The notes under the pieces were generated by a model. It saw only the letters and a list, made by a program, of their open reading frames with translations, ran no database searches and was not told the DNA's origin. The position numbers and the translations under genes are program-made. Positions 1-10,032 of a stretch of DNA of 64,000 nucleotides are shown here, piece after piece. The stretch's first letter is position 1, and every line of letters begins with the position of its first letter. This DNA comes from an uncultured Candidatus Competibacteraceae bacterium (GTDB taxonomy: Bacteria > Pseudomonadota > Gammaproteobacteria > Competibacterales > Competibacteraceae): positions 1 to 64,000 of the forward strand of contig CAIRMO010000077.1 of NCBI GenBank assembly GCA_903879705.1, in the 5' to 3' direction.

Positions 1-350
1 ACTTCTTTTGGCCATGGCATACATCACCTCGAATAGAATTTTTGCGCTTAAAATAATTTTTTATTACAACCCGCTTTTACCCCTTTATTTTACAGAAAAG
101 CTATTGAAATTCAATATCTTAGTTTTTAGACAGTCTCTCAAATGATTTGCCGATCACGGAATGACAGCCTGATAATTTTCATAATTTTCAATATCAAATG
201 AAGAAAATACGCCCGGTACTAAAGACGTATGTGGAGATCCACGGCAATGTTATTGCTCTGGTTTTCAGAACCCTGCTGCTATTCTGTAGCAGAAAAAATG
301 GTAAAAATCAAATGGATAATTCCAGAAAAATGAATGCACCTTTCACCCCC
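1..350 (+). other. AT-rich leader upstream of the first gene
   Basis: This stretch is strongly AT-rich and probably holds the promoter of the decarboxylase gene that follows. A 13-bp palindrome (attgaa-a-ttcaat) lies at 103-115. No -35/-10 pair stands out enough to assign. An open frame in the same phase as the next gene starts at 198, but the peptide it would add has no counterpart in the family and has no ribosome-binding site. Confidence 0.4.
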
Positions 351-1316
351 ATGAAGCCGTCCATTCGCAAACGTGTGTTAGTTACTGGCGGTGCCGGATT
401 TCTCGGTTCGCATCTGTGCGAGCGACTGCTCGATGCCGGGCACGACTTGTTGTGTGTCGATAATTTTTACACCGGCACCAAAGACAACCTGCTCCATGTG
501 CTGGCTAACCCGCATCTCGAGCTGATGCGGCATGACGTCACCTTTCCGCTGTATGTGGAAGTAGACGAGATCTTCAACCTGGCTTGTCCAGCCTCGCCGA
601 TCCACTACCAGTTCGATCCGGTGCAGACTACCAAGACCAGTGTGCATGGGGCGATCAATATGCTGGGCTTGGCCAAACGAGTGAAAGCCAATATCCTGCA
701 AGCCTCAACCAGCGAGGTGTACGGCGATCCGGAAGTCCACCCGCAACGCGAAGACTACTGGGGGCGCGTCAATCCCAATGGAATTCGAGCCTGCTATGAC
801 GAAGGGAAGCGCTGCGCCGAGACGCTCTTTTTTGATTACCGTCGTCAGCACGGGCTGAATATTAAGGTCGCACGCATCTTCAACACCTACGGACCGCGCA
901 TGCACCCTAACGATGGCCGGGTAGTCTCCAACTTTATTGTCCAAGCGCTGCATGACGAGCCGATCACCCTCTACGGTGATGGCAGCCAGACCCGGGCGTT
1001 TTGCTATGTGGACGACCTGATCGAAGGTCTGTTACGGCTGATGGCTACGCCGGACGACTTCACCGGGCCGGTAAACCTGGGCAATCCGGGCGAGTTCACC
1101 ATCAAGGAACTGGCGGAAAAAGTGATCGAGCTAACGGGTTCGCGCTCGGTACTGAGCTACCACCCCCTGCCAAGTGATGACCCGACGCAACGCCGGCCAG
1201 ATATCACCTTGGCCCGGAATGCGCTGGGCTGGGAGCCGAAAGTGCATTTGGAGGAAGGTCTGCGGCGTACTATCGCTTACTTCGATGCGCTGTTAAGCGG
1301 GAAGATTGAGGGGTAA
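351..1316 (+). CDS. UDP-glucuronate decarboxylase (UDP-xylose synthase type SDR epimerase)
   Basis: Extended short-chain dehydrogenase that would convert UDP-glucuronate to UDP-xylose, a cytoplasmic nucleotide-sugar step feeding the EPS locus. The N-terminus has the Rossmann signature [12 protein letters not shown]. The family motif [14 protein letters not shown] follows, then the catalytic set around [10 protein letters not shown] and the YDEGKR YxxxK motif, and the late SDQT-like [10 protein letters not shown] stretch. About 321 aa from this start, normal for bacterial UXS. The start at 351 was chosen because family members begin just before RKRVLVTGG. In-frame ATGs at 198, 312 and 330 also exist and none has a clear Shine-Dalgarno, so the start is uncertain. 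dTDP-glucose dehydratase is less likely because the PASP motif is typical of UXS. Confidence 0.88.
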
Positions 1317-1690
1317 AAAAGGTAAGGCGGCACTTTCTGTATCAAGAAAAGCCTCGCCCCCGCATTCGCGAGGGCAGGCTCTTTAGGGTGGAGGATGAAT
1401 AGTGCGGCAAACGAAGTTTGCGAGGCAGGGCATGATAGACCAGGGATCTGACGAAAGTCCGGGTAGCAAAAATGTATTATAAACGCCATATTAATGCACA
1501 ATAAAGTCATTTAACTACTTTTAGCGACTAGAACTGACCTAATTTGTCAGTATTTAGGGGTTGCGGTTGGGTTTTAGAATCAAAGCGGCCGGATTGTTCC
1601 TTATATATAGCCCTAAAACGGCACTTAAACGCTGTTATTAGCTATTTAGGGTCAGATTGGCCCGGTTAGTGTATATGCTTTTGCTATCTG
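1317..1690 (+). other. Intergenic region before the riboswitch
   Basis: No gene is visible here. Short open frames on the minus strand lack any recognisable domain. The right end (about 1550-1690) is AT-rich and must carry the promoter for the riboswitch-led transcript, but I could not assign a convincing -35/-10 pair. Confidence 0.4.
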
Positions 1691-1776
1691 AAAAGGGCAA
1701 AGCTGTCGAAAGGCAGCGACGCAAAATCACCGGTCTAAGGGGCTTCGGCCCTATGACGGCAGGGTCGCCAGATCAG
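1690..1776 (+). promoter_or_regulatory. Cyclic di-GMP-I (GEMM-I) riboswitch
   Basis: RNA aptamer that binds cyclic di-GMP. The elements occur in GEMM order. AGGGCAAAGC is followed by a 6-bp stem gctgtc/ggcagc closed by a GAAA tetraloop. Then comes the conserved GACGCAAA junction. A second arm follows with CTAAG facing CTATGA, which resembles the 11-nt GAAA-tetraloop receptor, and it is capped by a TTCG tetraloop. The element closes with GACGGCAGGGTCGCC. It lies about 107 nt upstream of the start of the FN3 protein and on the same strand. The expression platform is not obvious: I see no clean terminator stem before the AGGGGA ribosome-binding site near 1868. Confidence 0.9.
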
Positions 1777-1882
1777 CCTCTTCGCGTATGACTTTAAGTT
1801 AGCGTCGTTGCTGTCCCTGTGTTTTGATTCGGTGGTGTGTGTGTGCTCCATACGACATCAAACTCATTAGGGGATCGCAGCG

Positions 1883-2779
1883 ATGATGACTAGTAAAGGG
1901 TTACTCAATTTAATAAAAAATTTTGAGTGTCTAGTAAAATTGGGCATTCTATTTTTTCTTTGTACGGCAACAGTTCAAGCCTATCAAGCCACCCTGAGCT
2001 GGGATGCAAGTGCAGAATCTACCCCTGTCGGCTATCGTGTCCACTACGGACAGGCCAGTGGCAATTACAGCTCAAGTATCGATGTGGGCTTACAGACCAC
2101 ACATACGATATCCAACCTTCAGGATGGCACTTATTACTTTGCCGCTACGAGTTACGATGTCGATAAGATTGAAAGCAGATTTTCCAATGAGGTCAGCAAA
2201 AATTTTACTGCCACCAACCCCCCTTTGCCGAGTCCATGGCTGGATATGGACATCGGTAATGTAGGGCTAACCGGGAAAGCCAGTTTTACGGATAAAACCT
2301 ATACGTTATCAGGGTCTGGAGCCGATATCTGGGGTATCACAGACGCCTTTCACTTTGTGTATCAGCCTTTGAATGGAAACGGAACGATTATCGCGCGCGT
2401 GGTCAGTATTACTAACACGAACTCCTGGGCTAAGGCCGGAGTGATGATTCGTGAAAACCTGGATGCTAACGCGCGCCATGCAATGGTAGTGGTGACTTCG
2501 CAGAATGGCGTCTCTTTCCAACGCCGACTTACGACAAACGCGAACTCCTCCCTTACTGCTGGTGCTTCTGCGAAAGCTCCTTATTGGGTTAAATTAGTGC
2601 GCACCCGTAATCTCTTTAACGCCTACCAATCAGCCGATGGCATTAAGTGGATCGCTATCAGTAAATCGGTCACGATTAATATGGCAACCAGTGTGTACAT
2701 CGGCTTAGCAGTGACGAGCCATGATAACGGCACTCTGAATATTGCGAAGTTTGATAACGTAAGTGTGTACAGCAACTGA
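1883..2779 (+). CDS. Secreted FN3 plus ConA/laminin-G-like domain protein
   Basis: Probably exported carbohydrate- or matrix-binding protein; no catalytic residues recognised. An N-terminal signal peptide (hydrophobic core VKLGILFFLCTATVQA, likely cleavage after VQA about residue 33) precedes a fibronectin type III domain (about 35-108, with ATLSWDAS, VGYRVHYG and YYFAATSYD). A C-terminal ConA-like sandwich (about 118-297) resembles DUF1349-type domains, with WAKAGVMIRENLD, YWVKLVR and FDNVSV. The start ATGATG follows AGGGGA with usual spacing. It sits directly downstream of the c-di-GMP riboswitch and is followed after 13 nt by the beta-helix gene, so the two are likely co-transcribed. Specific ligand unknown. 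Confidence 0.8.
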   Translation: MMTSKGLLNLIKNFECLVKLGILFFLCTATVQAYQATLSWDASAESTPVGYRVHYGQASGNYSSSIDVGLQTTHTISNLQDGTYYFAATSYDVDKIESRFSNEVSKNFTATNPPLPSPWLDMDIGNVGLTGKASFTDKTYTLSGSGADIWGITDAFHFVYQPLNGNGTIIARVVSITNTNSWAKAGVMIRENLDANARHAMVVVTSQNGVSFQRRLTTNANSSLTAGASAKAPYWVKLVRTRNLFNAYQSADGIKWIAISKSVTINMATSVYIGLAVTSHDNGTLNIAKFDNVSVYSN

Positions 2780-4522: not shown

Positions 4523-5956
4523 ATGATTCGAATGAATGCGTTCCACCGAGGCTCCGTCGCTAAACCCACGTCGAATGCTGGACACCTTGCCGCGCTTGGC
4601 CTTGGCGCTGCCGCGGGTTTTTTCACCTTGTTTCTGGCCGATTGTGAGGTGCGCTGGACCATCTACGCCGTCGCTGGGCTGGCGGGCATTGTGTTCATCC
4701 TGGCGATGCCGGCCAAGCGATCATTGTTGATGATGATTTTCATACTGAGCCTGCAAGTCGACGTTCACCTACGCTTTCTGTACGGTCACGCACAAAGCGC
4801 GGGGTTGGCTATCCCCTTGGTGGTCGTTGCCGGCGTAGCCTTGTTAATCTGGTATGCCGGTTCCGGAAATCTAAAGGGATTTAAGTGGGCGGGAAGCATG
4901 CGGATGCCGATCGCCGCCCTTTTCGCGACCACCATGCTCTCTCTGGCAACCACGTCCGAACGATTCGTCGGCGTCACTGCGCTGTGGGAGGGCTTGGAGC
5001 TGTATTTCCTATATTGGCTGACGTTCAACACCGTTCAGACTGAAGATGACTTCAGGCAGGTCATCAAGCTCCTTTTCTTTACCTTGGGCGTCCAGGCGAT
5101 TGTCCTTTTCATCGAGAGCGCATTGGGGCTGAACTTTGACCTTGTAGGAAGCACTTGGGAACTGCAAGAGGTACCGCGACCCGGTGGCACGGTAAGCAGC
5201 AATCCGGCAGGATTTGCGAGCTTCATCATGCCCGCGCTGTTGATGGCAATCGCAAACTTCGCCGCTCGGGAGCACTTCATGCCCAAACGATATCTTTTTG
5301 TCGCGCTCGCACTCGGCACGACCGCCATCGGACTCACCTTTACGCGGGCTCCATGGATAGGCTTTTCCATGGCCTTGGCGTTCGTTGTCATCTATGGTTA
5401 CCGACGACAGTTCATTAAGGTTGGCATGATTGTGTGGATTATTGCGGCCGCTACCGTAATGATGGTGCTTCTCCTACCGAGTATGCTTGCCCGGATCCAG
5501 AGCGGGTACGGGGGCGACGTCACCGGCACGACCACGGTGGACGAGCGGCTGGGATTGATTCAGATCGCATTGAACATTATCACCGCGCATCCTGTCACCG
5601 GCATCGGTCCTGGAGCATACTCCCACGCCTATAAAGACTTTGTTCCTGCAGGAATGGACCAGTGGCTCTTCACAGTCCACAACGAGTTCCTACTCCGTGC
5701 TGCCGAGACCGGCATTCCTGGGGCTCTGGCGTTCGTGGCATTGCTTGTAACCGGCTTCCGAGTCGCAGGGCGACTCGCTCGCTCAGAATCGTCCCTCATC
5801 AGTGTAAGCGCCTTGGGCTGGCTGGCCGCCCTGATTGCCCTGGTCTGGCAGATGAACTGGGTCCCCTGGTCTGGCTGGACTTATAATGCGATGCTGTGGA
5901 TCATGCTTGGGCTGATGGATGGTGCCCAGCGGCTAGTAACGCGGAGCGAAAGATGA
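4523..5956 (+). CDS. O-antigen ligase / Wzy-type polymerase family membrane protein
   Basis: Multi-spanning inner-membrane protein of the Wzy_C (O-antigen ligase) superfamily, 477 aa with roughly 10-12 hydrophobic segments. The large periplasmic loop holds RPGGTVSSNPAGFASF. The conserved late motif HPVTGIGPGAYSH plus VHNEFLLRAAETGIPGA is the Wzy_C signature. In an EPS locus with Wzx, Wzz and Wza homologues the likely role is polymerising lipid-linked repeat units at the periplasmic face; ligase activity cannot be excluded from sequence. It begins 104 nt after the beta-helix gene and is followed by an inverted repeat. Confidence 0.85.
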   Translation: MIRMNAFHRGSVAKPTSNAGHLAALGLGAAAGFFTLFLADCEVRWTIYAVAGLAGIVFILAMPAKRSLLMMIFILSLQVDVHLRFLYGHAQSAGLAIPLVVVAGVALLIWYAGSGNLKGFKWAGSMRMPIAALFATTMLSLATTSERFVGVTALWEGLELYFLYWLTFNTVQTEDDFRQVIKLLFFTLGVQAIVLFIESALGLNFDLVGSTWELQEVPRPGGTVSSNPAGFASFIMPALLMAIANFAAREHFMPKRYLFVALALGTTAIGLTFTRAPWIGFSMALAFVVIYGYRRQFIKVGMIVWIIAAATVMMVLLLPSMLARIQSGYGGDVTGTTTVDERLGLIQIALNIITAHPVTGIGPGAYSHAYKDFVPAGMDQWLFTVHNEFLLRAAETGIPGALAFVALLVTGFRVAGRLARSESSLISVSALGWLAALIALVWQMNWVPWSGWTYNAMLWIMLGLMDGAQRLVTRSER

Positions 5957-5962
5957 TCCGCC

Positions 5963-6020
5963 AAGCAGGGGACAACTGATAATGCAACGCCCGCTGGTGA
6001 GCCTTTGCGATCCCCTGCTT
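5963..6020 (+). terminator. Inverted repeat after the Wzy-type gene
   Basis: Ten-base arms aagcagggga (5963-5972) and tcccctgctt (6011-6020) are perfectly complementary across a 38-nt loop, directly after the stop codon at 5956. There is no T-run right after it, so it is a weak or factor-dependent terminator candidate, or just an mRNA 3' structure. The rest of the interval up to 6256 is AT-rich and shows no convincing gene. Confidence 0.4.
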
Positions 6021-6256
6021 AGCCGGCGAGTACAATGACCGATTAGTAAGAATTGATGCGATTACCTTGGAGGTTTTTTAAATACTATTTCTTCTCCAGG
6101 AATTGCTGGTAGGGCGTGGGGCGGATTCCAAAGAATTCTCCAATCTTTGCACAAACTTTAGTCATTATCTCGAAATAGACCTTAAACCCTTAAAATATGC
6201 TCGGTACGCACAGTACGAAATAGCTTCCAGAGTAACGATCAAGAAAACAAAGAAGG

Positions 6257-7297
6257 ATGAAGATTTCTCAATATTTGGTCACCATATTTCTCGATGCCTT
6301 GGGGAAAATGGGGACCATGCCCAAAAATAAGAGACGGTTGCTGGCCTTACCCGCTAGGGTGCCTGGTTACCTAGAACTCATCCGCCGGTTACAGGCGCAA
6401 AAGATAGCAATCGTGATGTATCATGGGGTGACAGACTGTCCCCCCGCGGTCTTCAATTGGTGCCATCTCAAGGTCGATGAATTCGCCCGACAGATCGACT
6501 TCCTGGTCGAGCATTACACCATCCTGCATCTTGAAGAGGTTATCGAACGGCTACACAGGGGACAGAGCCTGCCACCGAGGACGGCTTGCGTGACCTTTGA
6601 CGATGGCTTCCGTAGTGTTGCAACGACGGCTTTTCCGATCCTCCTGCGGCGTCAGATACCGAGTACGGTATTCCTGGTAACAAGCCAGGTGGGGACCCGG
6701 CAGCCAGCTTGGCCGGACCGGCTGTACTGGAACGTAGCTTGCTCGACGCAAGGCTCGGTAAGGTTCAACGGCGTGGAATACCACCTCGGCAGCAATGATG
6801 ATCGAGCTACAGTTTACAGGAGACTGGCCGAACAGCTAAAGAACATGGATTTGGCCGAGCGCGAGGACCGGTTGGCTAGGCTCACCGAGGCGTTAGGCAA
6901 TTTTCGCGTCCCCTCCGAGGCGGTGGTGGCGACCTTAGACTGGAGCGAGGTAGACGCGCTGGCGCGCACAGGCTTGGTTCGATTCGGCTCGCACACCCAC
7001 ACCCACCCTATCCTCTCCCGCTGTCCGGTGGAAGTGCAACGGGAAGAGTTGGAAACGTCCCGCAACGTACTCCAGGAGCGTGGGCTGTCCGCCTCGCTGT
7101 TCGCCTACCCAAACGGCAGACCCGCCGATTTCACCGCCGACACTCAGCGTCTGCTCCGCGAATTGGGCTATCGTTGTGGGTTGACCACGATCCCGGGATT
7201 AAACAGACCCTACGCGGACCTATACACCCTGCGGCGGGTCAACGTCGGGGCTGATATACTGGGACTACAGTTCAGGTTGTGGATGGCCGGTCTTTAA
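6257..7297 (+). CDS. Polysaccharide deacetylase (NodB homology, CE4)
   Basis: CE4-type metal-dependent deacetylase that would remove N- or O-acetyl groups from the EPS. The NodB domain starts at IVMYHGV. TFDDGF carries the catalytic Asp and the metal-binding Asp, SHTHTHP carries the metal-binding His pair, and FAYPNG is the next conserved motif. No classical signal peptide is visible, so it could be cytoplasmic or poorly predicted. The start is uncertain: ATG 6257 has AAGAAGG directly abutting it, while ATG 6317 is preceded by GGGG and gives MPKNKRRLL, a plausible N-terminus. A second deacetylase lies in the minus arm (12635-13534). Confidence 0.85.
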   Translation: MKISQYLVTIFLDALGKMGTMPKNKRRLLALPARVPGYLELIRRLQAQKIAIVMYHGVTDCPPAVFNWCHLKVDEFARQIDFLVEHYTILHLEEVIERLHRGQSLPPRTACVTFDDGFRSVATTAFPILLRRQIPSTVFLVTSQVGTRQPAWPDRLYWNVACSTQGSVRFNGVEYHLGSNDDRATVYRRLAEQLKNMDLAEREDRLARLTEALGNFRVPSEAVVATLDWSEVDALARTGLVRFGSHTHTHPILSRCPVEVQREELETSRNVLQERGLSASLFAYPNGRPADFTADTQRLLRELGYRCGLTTIPGLNRPYADLYTLRRVNVGADILGLQFRLWMAGL

Positions 7298-7452
7298 GTC
7301 GAGGTGGTGCTGTCGTGCCTGAATCGGTGATGCTACCCAAGGGTGGCTGGCCTATCCCCGACCCATCCAAAAATCCGATGCACATTTGCACTCTGCGCAC
7401 CGGTCACGATCATCACCGAGTTCTCTCAGCTCGTTGTCCCTCGCCAGCCAAC

Positions 7453-7472
7453 CCACCGGCTTTAGCCGGTGG
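7453..7472. repeat. Perfect hairpin (CCACCGGC TTTA GCCGGTGG)
   Basis: Eight-base perfect arms with a 4-nt loop, sitting in the gap between the deacetylase and the ATP-grasp gene. Hairpins of this kind often occur as dispersed REP-like units in proteobacteria. No T-run follows on the plus strand, so a terminator role is only possible. Confidence 0.5.
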
Positions 7473-7522
7473 TAGGTGAGTTTCATCTCAGGTTGTCTAA
7501 AACATAGTCCGCTTCATAAATC

Positions 7523-8746
7523 ATGCCCCCATCATTCGAAACCCAGCACCCGGTATTCGTTTTAGGCCTCTTCGACACTGGCCTCGTAACCGCTCAAGGA
7601 CTTGCCCGACATGGAATTTCTGTCGTGGGGTTCGACTGCGATAAACGAAGTCCCGGTTTTTTTTCGAAGCTCTTTTCACCCGTGCTTTGCCCATCTCCTC
7701 ATGGTGGCGACGATCCGGCGCTGCTGGCACTCCTAAAGAGTCAAGCCAAAGCATTTACGAAGCCCCCCGTACTTTATCCCACGTCAGACGCCTTCGTTGG
7801 TTTCATCGCACGAAACACACAGGAACTGGCGAAGTCCTTTCTGTTCAATATTCCCGAACCTTCCGTAGCTGAAAAAATTCTTGCCAAGCATACTCAAGCA
7901 GAACTCGCGCAAAAAGCAGGCGCAATGGTTCCAAAAATGTTGCTCTTCACACCCGAAACTGTCGATAGCTTGCTTTCCTCATGTAAAAATAGCACTGAAA
8001 TCAATAAGTTCCATTTTCCGGCATTTTTTAAGCCCGTGCATGGCTATCAATGGCAGCGCCACATCAAGAACAAGGGGATGCTGGTACGCTCACCAGGGGA
8101 ATTGCGCATAGCTTTGCAGAATATCCGCAAATTCGATCTAAAAGCGATTCTTCAGGAGATCGTGGTTGGTCCCGCATCCGAACAATTTGAGATTTCGCTC
8201 TATGTCGACACGAAGGGAGATATTTCTGGCCCGTTTGTCATGCGCAAATGGCGTAGCTTTCCGCGAGAACTAGGCACCGGTACCTACGGGACATCGTTGA
8301 TCGATCCCACACTTTCGACCATCGCCCAGAGTCTAGCCCTAAAAATGGGCATTCGCGGTTTTGCCAACATGGAATTCAAACTTGATGCGTGCGACTCGAC
8401 GTTCAAGTTCATTGAGGTGAATCCTCGCGTTTGGCAGCAGGTAGGACTTGCCACGGATTGTGGTCTGGATCTTCTGCTGACTCAGTACCTCGACTTGACC
8501 AAACAGCAGTTTTCACCTGTCACGCAATACCAGGCCGGCGTACACTGGATAGACCCAATTACGGACCTTCTTGCCAACCCTTCGTTTTATGATTGGATAC
8601 GGGTCTTTCACTCCGCCACAAGCAGAGGCATCCTGGCAATAGACGACCCATGGCCTGCCGTTCGCACGATTTTCTTGAGCCGCAGGTTTTTTGGATTATT
8701 AAAGGCTTTATTGAAAAAAACTTGGCTCATGTTGGCAACTCGATGA
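7523..8746 (+). CDS. ATP-grasp family carboxylate-amine ligase-like protein
   Basis: Predicted ATP-dependent ligase joining a carboxylate to an amine or similar nucleophile, cytoplasmic. The N-terminal preATP-grasp part (VFVLGLFDTGLVTAQGLARH, VVGFDCD) is followed by an ATP-grasp core (about 115-320). FPAFFKPVHG is the nucleotide-lysine region and FKFIEVNPRVWQQ carries the metal-binding Glu/Asn pair. Length 407 aa is ordinary for the biotin-carboxylase-like group. Its position between a deacetylase and a GT2 suggests it decorates the EPS or a precursor, for example with an amino acid; the substrate cannot be read from sequence. Confidence 0.75.
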   Translation: MPPSFETQHPVFVLGLFDTGLVTAQGLARHGISVVGFDCDKRSPGFFSKLFSPVLCPSPHGGDDPALLALLKSQAKAFTKPPVLYPTSDAFVGFIARNTQELAKSFLFNIPEPSVAEKILAKHTQAELAQKAGAMVPKMLLFTPETVDSLLSSCKNSTEINKFHFPAFFKPVHGYQWQRHIKNKGMLVRSPGELRIALQNIRKFDLKAILQEIVVGPASEQFEISLYVDTKGDISGPFVMRKWRSFPRELGTGTYGTSLIDPTLSTIAQSLALKMGIRGFANMEFKLDACDSTFKFIEVNPRVWQQVGLATDCGLDLLLTQYLDLTKQQFSPVTQYQAGVHWIDPITDLLANPSFYDWIRVFHSATSRGILAIDDPWPAVRTIFLSRRFFGLLKALLKKTWLMLATR

Positions 8747-8850
8747 CTAGCGGAGAAATTTTTCAACGTGGCTCACCATTCCACCGATTTACCGATATGA
8801 GCGAAAAGTTTTGATGCGTTTGCCCTGCCCCCAAACCCTTGGATTAGCCA

Positions 8851-10032
8851 ATGCAAACTCTTTGGTCTATGCTGGGAACCTTGCTCATCTTAGCTACTCT
8901 GCCTGGCACGCTGGAATTGCTGTTCCTCACTCTCAGCGGCATCGTGCCCCGCCATCGTCATCCTAGCCACAGAACCACAGAAGCACAGTCCTTGCGTTTA
9001 TGCGCTGTGGTGCCGGCCCACAACGAAGAAAATGGCATTGGCGGTTGCGTGGCCTCACTCCTTGCCTGCGAACCAGGAAGACATGAAGTTACTGTCGTCG
9101 TCGTCGCCGACAATTGCACCGACTCCACTGCCGAACAGGCAAGGGCAGCCGGGGCGCGGGTGTTGGAACGGCAAGCCCTACAGCGCAGGGGTAAGGGTTA
9201 TGCTTTGGATTACGCCTTTTCCATCTTGCTACCGGAAAACCACGATGCCTTTTTGATTGTCGATGCGGACACGGCGGTAGAGGCCAATTTCATCCAAGCC
9301 ACGGCCAAGCAGTTCGCTCAAGGGGCCGAAGCTTTGCAATGCCGTTATCTGGCGGGCAATCCGGAAGAGTCCATCCGCGCCCGCTTGATGCATGTGGCCT
9401 GGCTGGCTTTCAACATTCTCAGGCTGCGGGGGCGGGAATGCTGGGGGCTGTCCGTGGGGATCTTGGGGAATGGCTTCGGCTTGGCGCGTGCGACCCTTGA
9501 AAAAGTTCCTTTTGACGCCAGCTCCATCGCCGAAGACCTGGAATACCATCTACGCTTGGTGCGGGCCGGGCTACGAGTACAGTATTGCGAAGATACCACG
9601 GTATGGTCAGCGGTACCCAACCAAGGCCGCGCTGCTGCTGGTCAACGCGCCCGCTGGGAAGGTGGTAGATTTCGCATGATCCGGGAACAGACCCTTGGAC
9701 TGGCCTTGGAGGTTTTGCAGGGACGCTTGAGGCTGTTGGAACCGCTGTTGGAATTGCTGTTGCTGCCCTTGGCCTTCCATGTGTTCCTGTTGCTGTGCCT
9801 ACTGGCTGTGCCTTTCCCACTGGGCCGGATTCTAGCACTTGTGGGGCTAGGCGGGGTGTGCTTGCATGTGTGTGCTGCCTTGTATGTGGGGCTGGCTGGC
9901 TGGCGCGACGCCTTGGTGTTGCTGTACGCGCCGGTTTACATCCTTTGGAAACTCACCATCGGGCGGCACATCTTCGAATCAACTAGGGCGGGGGCCGCTT
10001 GGGAGCGCACTGAACGGAGTGACAAGCCATGA
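8851..10032 (+). CDS. Membrane-bound family 2 glycosyltransferase
   Basis: Inverting GT2 with GT-A fold at the cytoplasmic membrane face. One hydrophobic segment at the N-terminus (about 5-28) precedes VVPAHNEENGIGGCV and VVVADNCTDST. The metal-binding DXD is LIVDADTAVE, the acceptor-region motif is EDLEYHLRLV, and QRARWEGGR is the Q(Q/R)xRW-like motif of processive or cellulose-synthase-like enzymes. Several C-terminal membrane segments follow (about 290-370). It is the last plus-strand gene of the left arm and ends 31 nt from the convergent GT4 gene. Sugar specificity unknown. Confidence 0.85.
   Translation: MQTLWSMLGTLLILATLPGTLELLFLTLSGIVPRHRHPSHRTTEAQSLRLCAVVPAHNEENGIGGCVASLLACEPGRHEVTVVVVADNCTDSTAEQARAAGARVLERQALQRRGKGYALDYAFSILLPENHDAFLIVDADTAVEANFIQATAKQFAQGAEALQCRYLAGNPEESIRARLMHVAWLAFNILRLRGRECWGLSVGILGNGFGLARATLEKVPFDASSIAEDLEYHLRLVRAGLRVQYCEDTTVWSAVPNQGRAAAGQRARWEGGRFRMIREQTLGLALEVLQGRLRLLEPLLELLLLPLAFHVFLLLCLLAVPFPLGRILALVGLGGVCLHVCAALYVGLAGWRDALVLLYAPVYILWKLTIGRHIFESTRAGAAWERTERSDKP

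Follow-up and report, generated by a model that had tools for sequence, protein, structure and literature searches.

An EPS locus of a Competibacteraceae bacterium holds a secreted gene pair behind a canonical c-di-GMP-I aptamer, and this aptamer, together with a downstream strand-exchange platform, probably forms a translational OFF switch, all of the switching being predicted from a 64-kb stretch of DNA (the window) and from homologous leaders. Without ligand, platform strand 2, aided by strand 1, would invade the aptamer core before the ribosome-binding site (RBS) is transcribed; because the resulting helix would be topologically incompatible with pairing of strand 1 to the RBS, the RBS would stay open and the FN3/ConA-like protein and the beta-helix protein behind it would be translated. 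With c-di-GMP bound, the aptamer would retain its own strands and the platform strands would pair with the SD, spacer, and AUG, stopping translation. c-di-GMP is thus most likely a repressor of this module. The coordinates of the features are collected in Table 1.

Table 1. Features of the leader and its surroundings, in window coordinates
Feature	Position	Strand	Remarks
NAD-dependent epimerase/dehydratase-family gene	198..1316	+	Upstream EPS context
c-di-GMP-I (GEMM-I) aptamer including P1	1686..1773	+	RF01051, 75.7 bits, E 4.5e-13
Aptamer P1 strands	ATCTG 1686-1690 / CAGAT 1769-1773	+	
Aptamer GAAA tetraloop	1708-1711	+	
Aptamer strand caught by the platform in the alternative fold (predicted), AGCGACGCAAAATCACCGG	1715..1733	+	17-bp alternative helix in the window
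Platform strand 1, GCGTCGTTGCTGTCCCTG	1802..1819	+	Partners: aptamer P2 3' side and junction (-24.7 kcal/mol) or RBS (-24.7)
Platform strand 2, TCGGTGGTGTGTGTGTGCT (family consensus TCGGTGGTNTGCGYGCC)	1829..1847	+	Partners: aptamer core or RBS
RBS: SD AGGGG 1869-1873, spacer, ATG 1883-1885	1869..1885	+	Family consensus AGGGGATCGCARCCATG resembles the aptamer strands
Gene 1: secreted FN3 + ConA-like (DUF1349-type) protein, 298 aa	1883..2779	+	
Gene 2: secreted right-handed beta-helix protein, 541 aa	2793..4418	+	GTG start; SD GGAGG 2782-2786
Downstream EPS genes: Wzy_C/O-antigen-ligase type, polysaccharide deacetylase, ATP-grasp-like, GT2	4523..10032	+	GT2 EpsU-like below cutoff

A c-di-GMP-I Aptamer Ahead of a Secreted Gene Pair

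A cmscan of the whole window gave a single above-threshold Rfam match, RF01051 (c-di-GMP-I), at 1686-1772(+), scoring 75.7 bits against a gathering threshold of 35 (E 4.5e-13). The alignment covers the full model (1-87), the aptamer is intact, and its P1 reaches 1773, one base past the end of the match. By sequence, the element is a member of the c-di-GMP-I class, and the score bears out the GEMM-I assignment of a preliminary description, which had proposed an Infernal search with RF01051 as its check. The GAAA tetraloop arm, the GACGCAAA junction, the CTAAG/CTATGA segments, and the TTCG loop named there are all present in the RF01051 alignment; the start, placed there at 1690, moves to 1686, and the end given there, 2779, coincides with the FN3 stop codon. 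The canonical ligand-contacting G, A, and C occur at aligned positions 12, 38, and 83 of the aptamer, and from the Rfam alignment and the Vc2 numbering we take window positions 1697, 1723, and 1768 to be the equivalents of Vc2 G20, A47, and C92. G20 is a selectivity factor between cyclic dinucleotides, favouring c-di-GMP over cGAMP (PMC9262584). The window aptamer would be expected to bind c-di-GMP. The source genome (3.62 Mb in 148 contigs) carries one further c-di-GMP-I copy, on contig C119, and 34 GGDEF matches.

The aptamer stands between the epimerase/dehydratase gene and a two-gene unit in which gene 2 begins 13 nt after gene 1; both genes are intact and are probably operon partners, and the N termini of both products are hydrophobic and signal-peptide-like. 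The gene 1 product matches FN3 (PF00041) above cutoff and DUF1349 (PF07081) at 27.3 bits, just below the curated cutoff of 32.4, a cutoff that its relatives L044, L045, and L046 exceed. Its AlphaFold model (pLDDT 87) resembles ConA-like folds including CBM66: the predicted C-terminal fold is like those of DUF1349, a GH43 C-terminal domain, and CBM66 (PDB 3o12, 3mep, 4b1m; TM by target 0.69-0.76), but identity is 14-18% and the gene 1 domain is preceded by FN3. The protein is probably glycan-binding, a putative assignment. The gene 2 product matches Beta_helix at 27.0 bits (cutoff 25.9), and no relatives of it were found in viral contigs, 39 family genomes, or 398 phylum genomes; since its single-sequence structure model is useless (pLDDT 31), we claim no enzymatic role for it.

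Matches to the Epimerase family, Wzy_C, polysaccharide deacetylase, GT2, Wzz/GNVR, and EPS_sugtrans (the last above cutoff, and lying with Wzz/GNVR further downstream) agree with the EPS locus of the preliminary description. Its secreted FN3/ConA-like protein is upheld by the domain matches and the model above, and its two-gene unit behind the riboswitch stands as probable; we also retain its view that the protein component could be controlled separately beside the EPS polymer genes. Close relatives of the gene 1 protein, 55-64% identical to it over most of its length, sit behind a c-di-GMP-I aptamer in genomes G002, G004, and G007, as do FN3/PKD proteins in G010 and G008. Polysaccharide genes adjoin the FN3 loci of G002 and G007 too, but because the deacetylase, ATP-grasp, and polymerase types there are only 24-29% identical to those of the window, the loci are alike in kind but do not represent one shared cluster. 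Outside Competibacteraceae, the 12 other loci with FN3/ConA homologues that we scanned showed no riboswitch nearby.

Homologous Leaders Share Platform Strands

Comparison of the flanks of 61 aptamers, the window's included, identified five Competibacteraceae leaders (window, G033, G030, G013, and G036; type A) that are homologous from P1 to the start codon. A covariance model built from them recovered only the same five at full score in an order-level search, with a large gap below. Past the aptamer, two motifs recur in all five, UCGGUGGUNUGCGYGCC and AGGGGAUCGCARCCAUG, the window versions being UCGGUGGUGUGUGUGUGCU and AGGGGAUCGCAGCGAUG. The first of these motifs has two complementary partners, the aptamer core (about 19 bp, at roughly nucleotides 27-49 of the aptamer) and the RBS, and in the window leader strand 1 is a second strand with such double complementarity, to aptamer and RBS. 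The pairing of one 26-nt strand with core and RBS alike beats 1000 dinucleotide shuffles in all five leaders, with p values of 0.004, 0.022, 0.004, 0.013, and 0.014 (window, 0.004) that are not independent, the leaders being kin. Standard pairs make up 95.8% of the alternative helix over the five leaders and 96.9% of the RBS helix, vs. 25-57% and 38-48%, respectively, once the strands are slid. Compensatory change in the two helices was not above shuffles among the five type A sequences, so the argument for the platform rests on conservation and complementarity and not on covariation, which we dropped as proof because five sequences are too few.

A class-wide search for the platform motif gave matches in 40 of 369 genomes, vs. 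two for the reversed pattern. All 20 matches that we fetched lie inside long open frames, with no AGGGGATC after them and no c-di-GMP-I aptamer at their loci, and are therefore unrelated coding matches.

The preliminary description had seen no clear terminator or anti-RBS helix and had concluded that the direction of the switch could not be read. Its first point stands, as no terminator was called between the aptamer and the start codon (1773 to 1883); an anti-RBS arrangement does exist, visible by comparison, and from the same comparison a direction can be inferred that points to translational OFF. A terminator-like match lies at window 1925-1949(+), in the first codons of the FN3 gene and followed by TATTTTTTCT; such matches are within chance numbers for the region.

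Predicted Direction of Switching

In computed folding energies, which leave out tertiary contacts and ligand, opening the SD costs 10.7, 9.6, 10.7, 9.4, and 10.5 kcal/mol with the aptamer imposed (window, G033, G030, G013, and G036) and 3.6, 6.9, 2.6, 4.8, and 3.4 kcal/mol, in the same order, with the alternative helix imposed. In these imposed states, aptamer and anti-aptamer pairings are predicted to be mutually exclusive, with the RBS blocked in the aptamer state. When P1 and P3 were penalized and the alternative helix was not imposed, coupling reached 2.9-6.0 kcal/mol in the four other type A leaders, and positive coupling was above shuffles at 0.05 in two of the four (the shuffle test spanned all leaders except G009 C78).

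RBS accessibility of the window leader at equilibrium differs between states by a ddG of 0.0-1.3 kcal/mol, no more than in shuffles, because the RBS is occupied by strand 1 in either state. Equilibrium coupling as the sole proof of direction fails for this copy, and since the RBS is sequestered at equilibrium either way, its switching would have to be kinetic. The nesting of the strands is such that strand 1 on the RBS and strand 2 on the aptamer would together make a pseudoknot. At the stage of transcription immediately ahead of the RBS, the window leader favours the ensemble with a disrupted aptamer by 12.7 kcal/mol, tertiary contacts and ligand uncounted. We predict that the window copy works by co-transcriptional capture.

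A translational ON switch, in which the ligand-bound aptamer frees the RBS and c-di-GMP induces a matrix protein beside the EPS genes, would suit the setting of the locus; class I riboswitches can be ON (PMC6366702), and without equilibrium coupling the direction is not proven for the window copy. We nevertheless regard it as unlikely, because in five of five type A leaders aptamer capture and potential RBS blocking fall to a single strand, so that aptamer formation favours RBS blockage, and because FN3-type leaders mostly show the OFF sign too. Improbable as well, and ranked after the ON switch, is a loss of switching in the window leader, where extended strand-1/RBS pairing (-24.7 kcal/mol) would keep the gene low and the aptamer would be a relic. 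Sequestration of the RBS in both equilibrium states fits such a loss, but the aptamer is intact with canonical contacts, the platform ranks with the strongest in dual complementarity of one strand (p 0.004), capture of the aptamer is favoured in the transcript that stops short of the RBS, and genes 1 and 2 are both intact. Transcription termination, intrinsic or by Rho, in place of translational control is very improbable: elsewhere in the family, some 30 c-di-GMP-I leaders have U-runs, apparently terminators, near 35 nt past the aptamer, but these form a distinct aptamer subgroup (C20-G46), and the window leader has no called terminator from 1773 to 1883; the sequence speaks less firmly against Rho than against an intrinsic terminator.

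Comparison with Known Systems

Like V. cholerae Vc2/Vc1 (RF01051), the window leader has the G20-C46 and C92 equivalents and no called terminator, and is likely to act on the RBS; it differs in its platform, with one strand complementary to aptamer core and RBS, and in its targets. The two class I switches of V. cholerae have opposite directions, neither of them via termination (PMC6366702). In C. difficile, the class I riboswitch Cdi1_12 represses the secreted protease PPEP-1 (CD2830) at high c-di-GMP (PMC7865049, PMC11477304), and class I switches there work via transcription termination (PMC6366702). For the window aptamer, too, the prediction is that high c-di-GMP turns down a secreted factor, and secreted proteases are the targets in relatives and at the source genome's other locus; in contrast, the window target is an FN3/ConA-like and beta-helix pair with no protease, its control is predicted to be translational, and the parallel does not extend to an inversely regulated adhesin. 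Bc2 of B. thuringiensis, before the cap collagen adhesin, is an ON switch via transcription read-through (PMC4933901, PMC6366702); there, as in the window, a class I riboswitch stands in front of a binding protein at the surface or secreted (a putative one in the window), but translational OFF control is predicted for the window leader.

We infer that the secreted pair, tied to the EPS locus, is expressed at low c-di-GMP in parallel to the proteases behind related leaders of the family. Because those leaders mostly precede secreted proteases, remodelling or release at low c-di-GMP is the more likely role of the module, over that of a c-di-GMP-induced matrix. Competibacteraceae accumulate glycogen and belong to the communities of wastewater sludge. 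Should RNA switches there let c-di-GMP repress secreted proteases and sugar-binding proteins, the break-up of flocs or granules could be tied to one measurable signal, and the c-di-GMP-repressed protease of C. difficile would gain a Gram-negative, translational counterpart. The FN3 leaders also present a case, open to experiment, in which a gene family would have kept the direction of its regulation through an exchange of platforms. Among the papers searched, none mentioned both a c-di-GMP riboswitch and Competibacter.

Other c-di-GMP-I Leaders in Competibacteraceae

At least one RF01051 match is present in 26 of the 39 family genomes, with 61 matches in total. The first gene encodes an S8 subtilase in each type A locus but the window's and a reprolysin-like metalloprotease in type B loci, that of the source genome's second copy included; an M11 peptidase and FN3/PKD/ConA-like proteins also occur as first genes behind canonical leaders. 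Nothing in the source genome closely matches the type A subtilase (33% over part at best), and the type A leader thus has unrelated genes behind it in different species. FN3-type leaders, among them the one ahead of the M11 peptidase, are unlike type A in sequence; their SD is buried in a hairpin in six of six folded (z -1.4 to -5.2), and of seven with computed coupling, six lean toward OFF and G007 is zero. Type B leaders, the source genome's other copy among them, give mixed coupling signs. The terminator-type group has mixed targets, including a subtilase and an M6 peptidase, so the link to proteases is not exclusive to the canonical group. We put forward only tentatively, as a possibility that may well prove wrong, that the canonical leaders of the family join secreted subtilases, reprolysin- and gametolysin-type proteases, and FN3/ConA-like proteins in one translational OFF regulon. 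This would be a riboswitch-driven programme of matrix release at low c-di-GMP, in which two or more platform designs arrive at the same direction and one leader type stands before unrelated genes.

By eye, the SD lies inside the P1 3' strand in G013 C4 and G016 C72. In the compact leaders L037:494-618 and L040:550-649, an SD GAGGAG overlaps the P1 3' strand, so a ligand-stabilized P1 could itself cover the SD.

Terminator-type aptamers (L051-L086, e.g., L058, L067, and L072) mostly read GCC...GACGG, with the Vc2 pair G20-C46 swapped to C20-G46 at a position known to influence ligand selectivity; the translational leaders of the family retain G20-C46. A small conserved protein of ~90-100 aa starting ML[ST][FY]EDCVGL follows several terminator-type aptamers (L072:3820-4095(-); also L055, L061, L070, L073, L076, and L082), and the one example searched had no Pfam match. 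In several cases, two to three c-di-GMP-I aptamers lie within 2-11 kb on one contig: L043 (G010 C47), L052 (G030 C65), L057 (G019 C63), and L036 (G038 C2).
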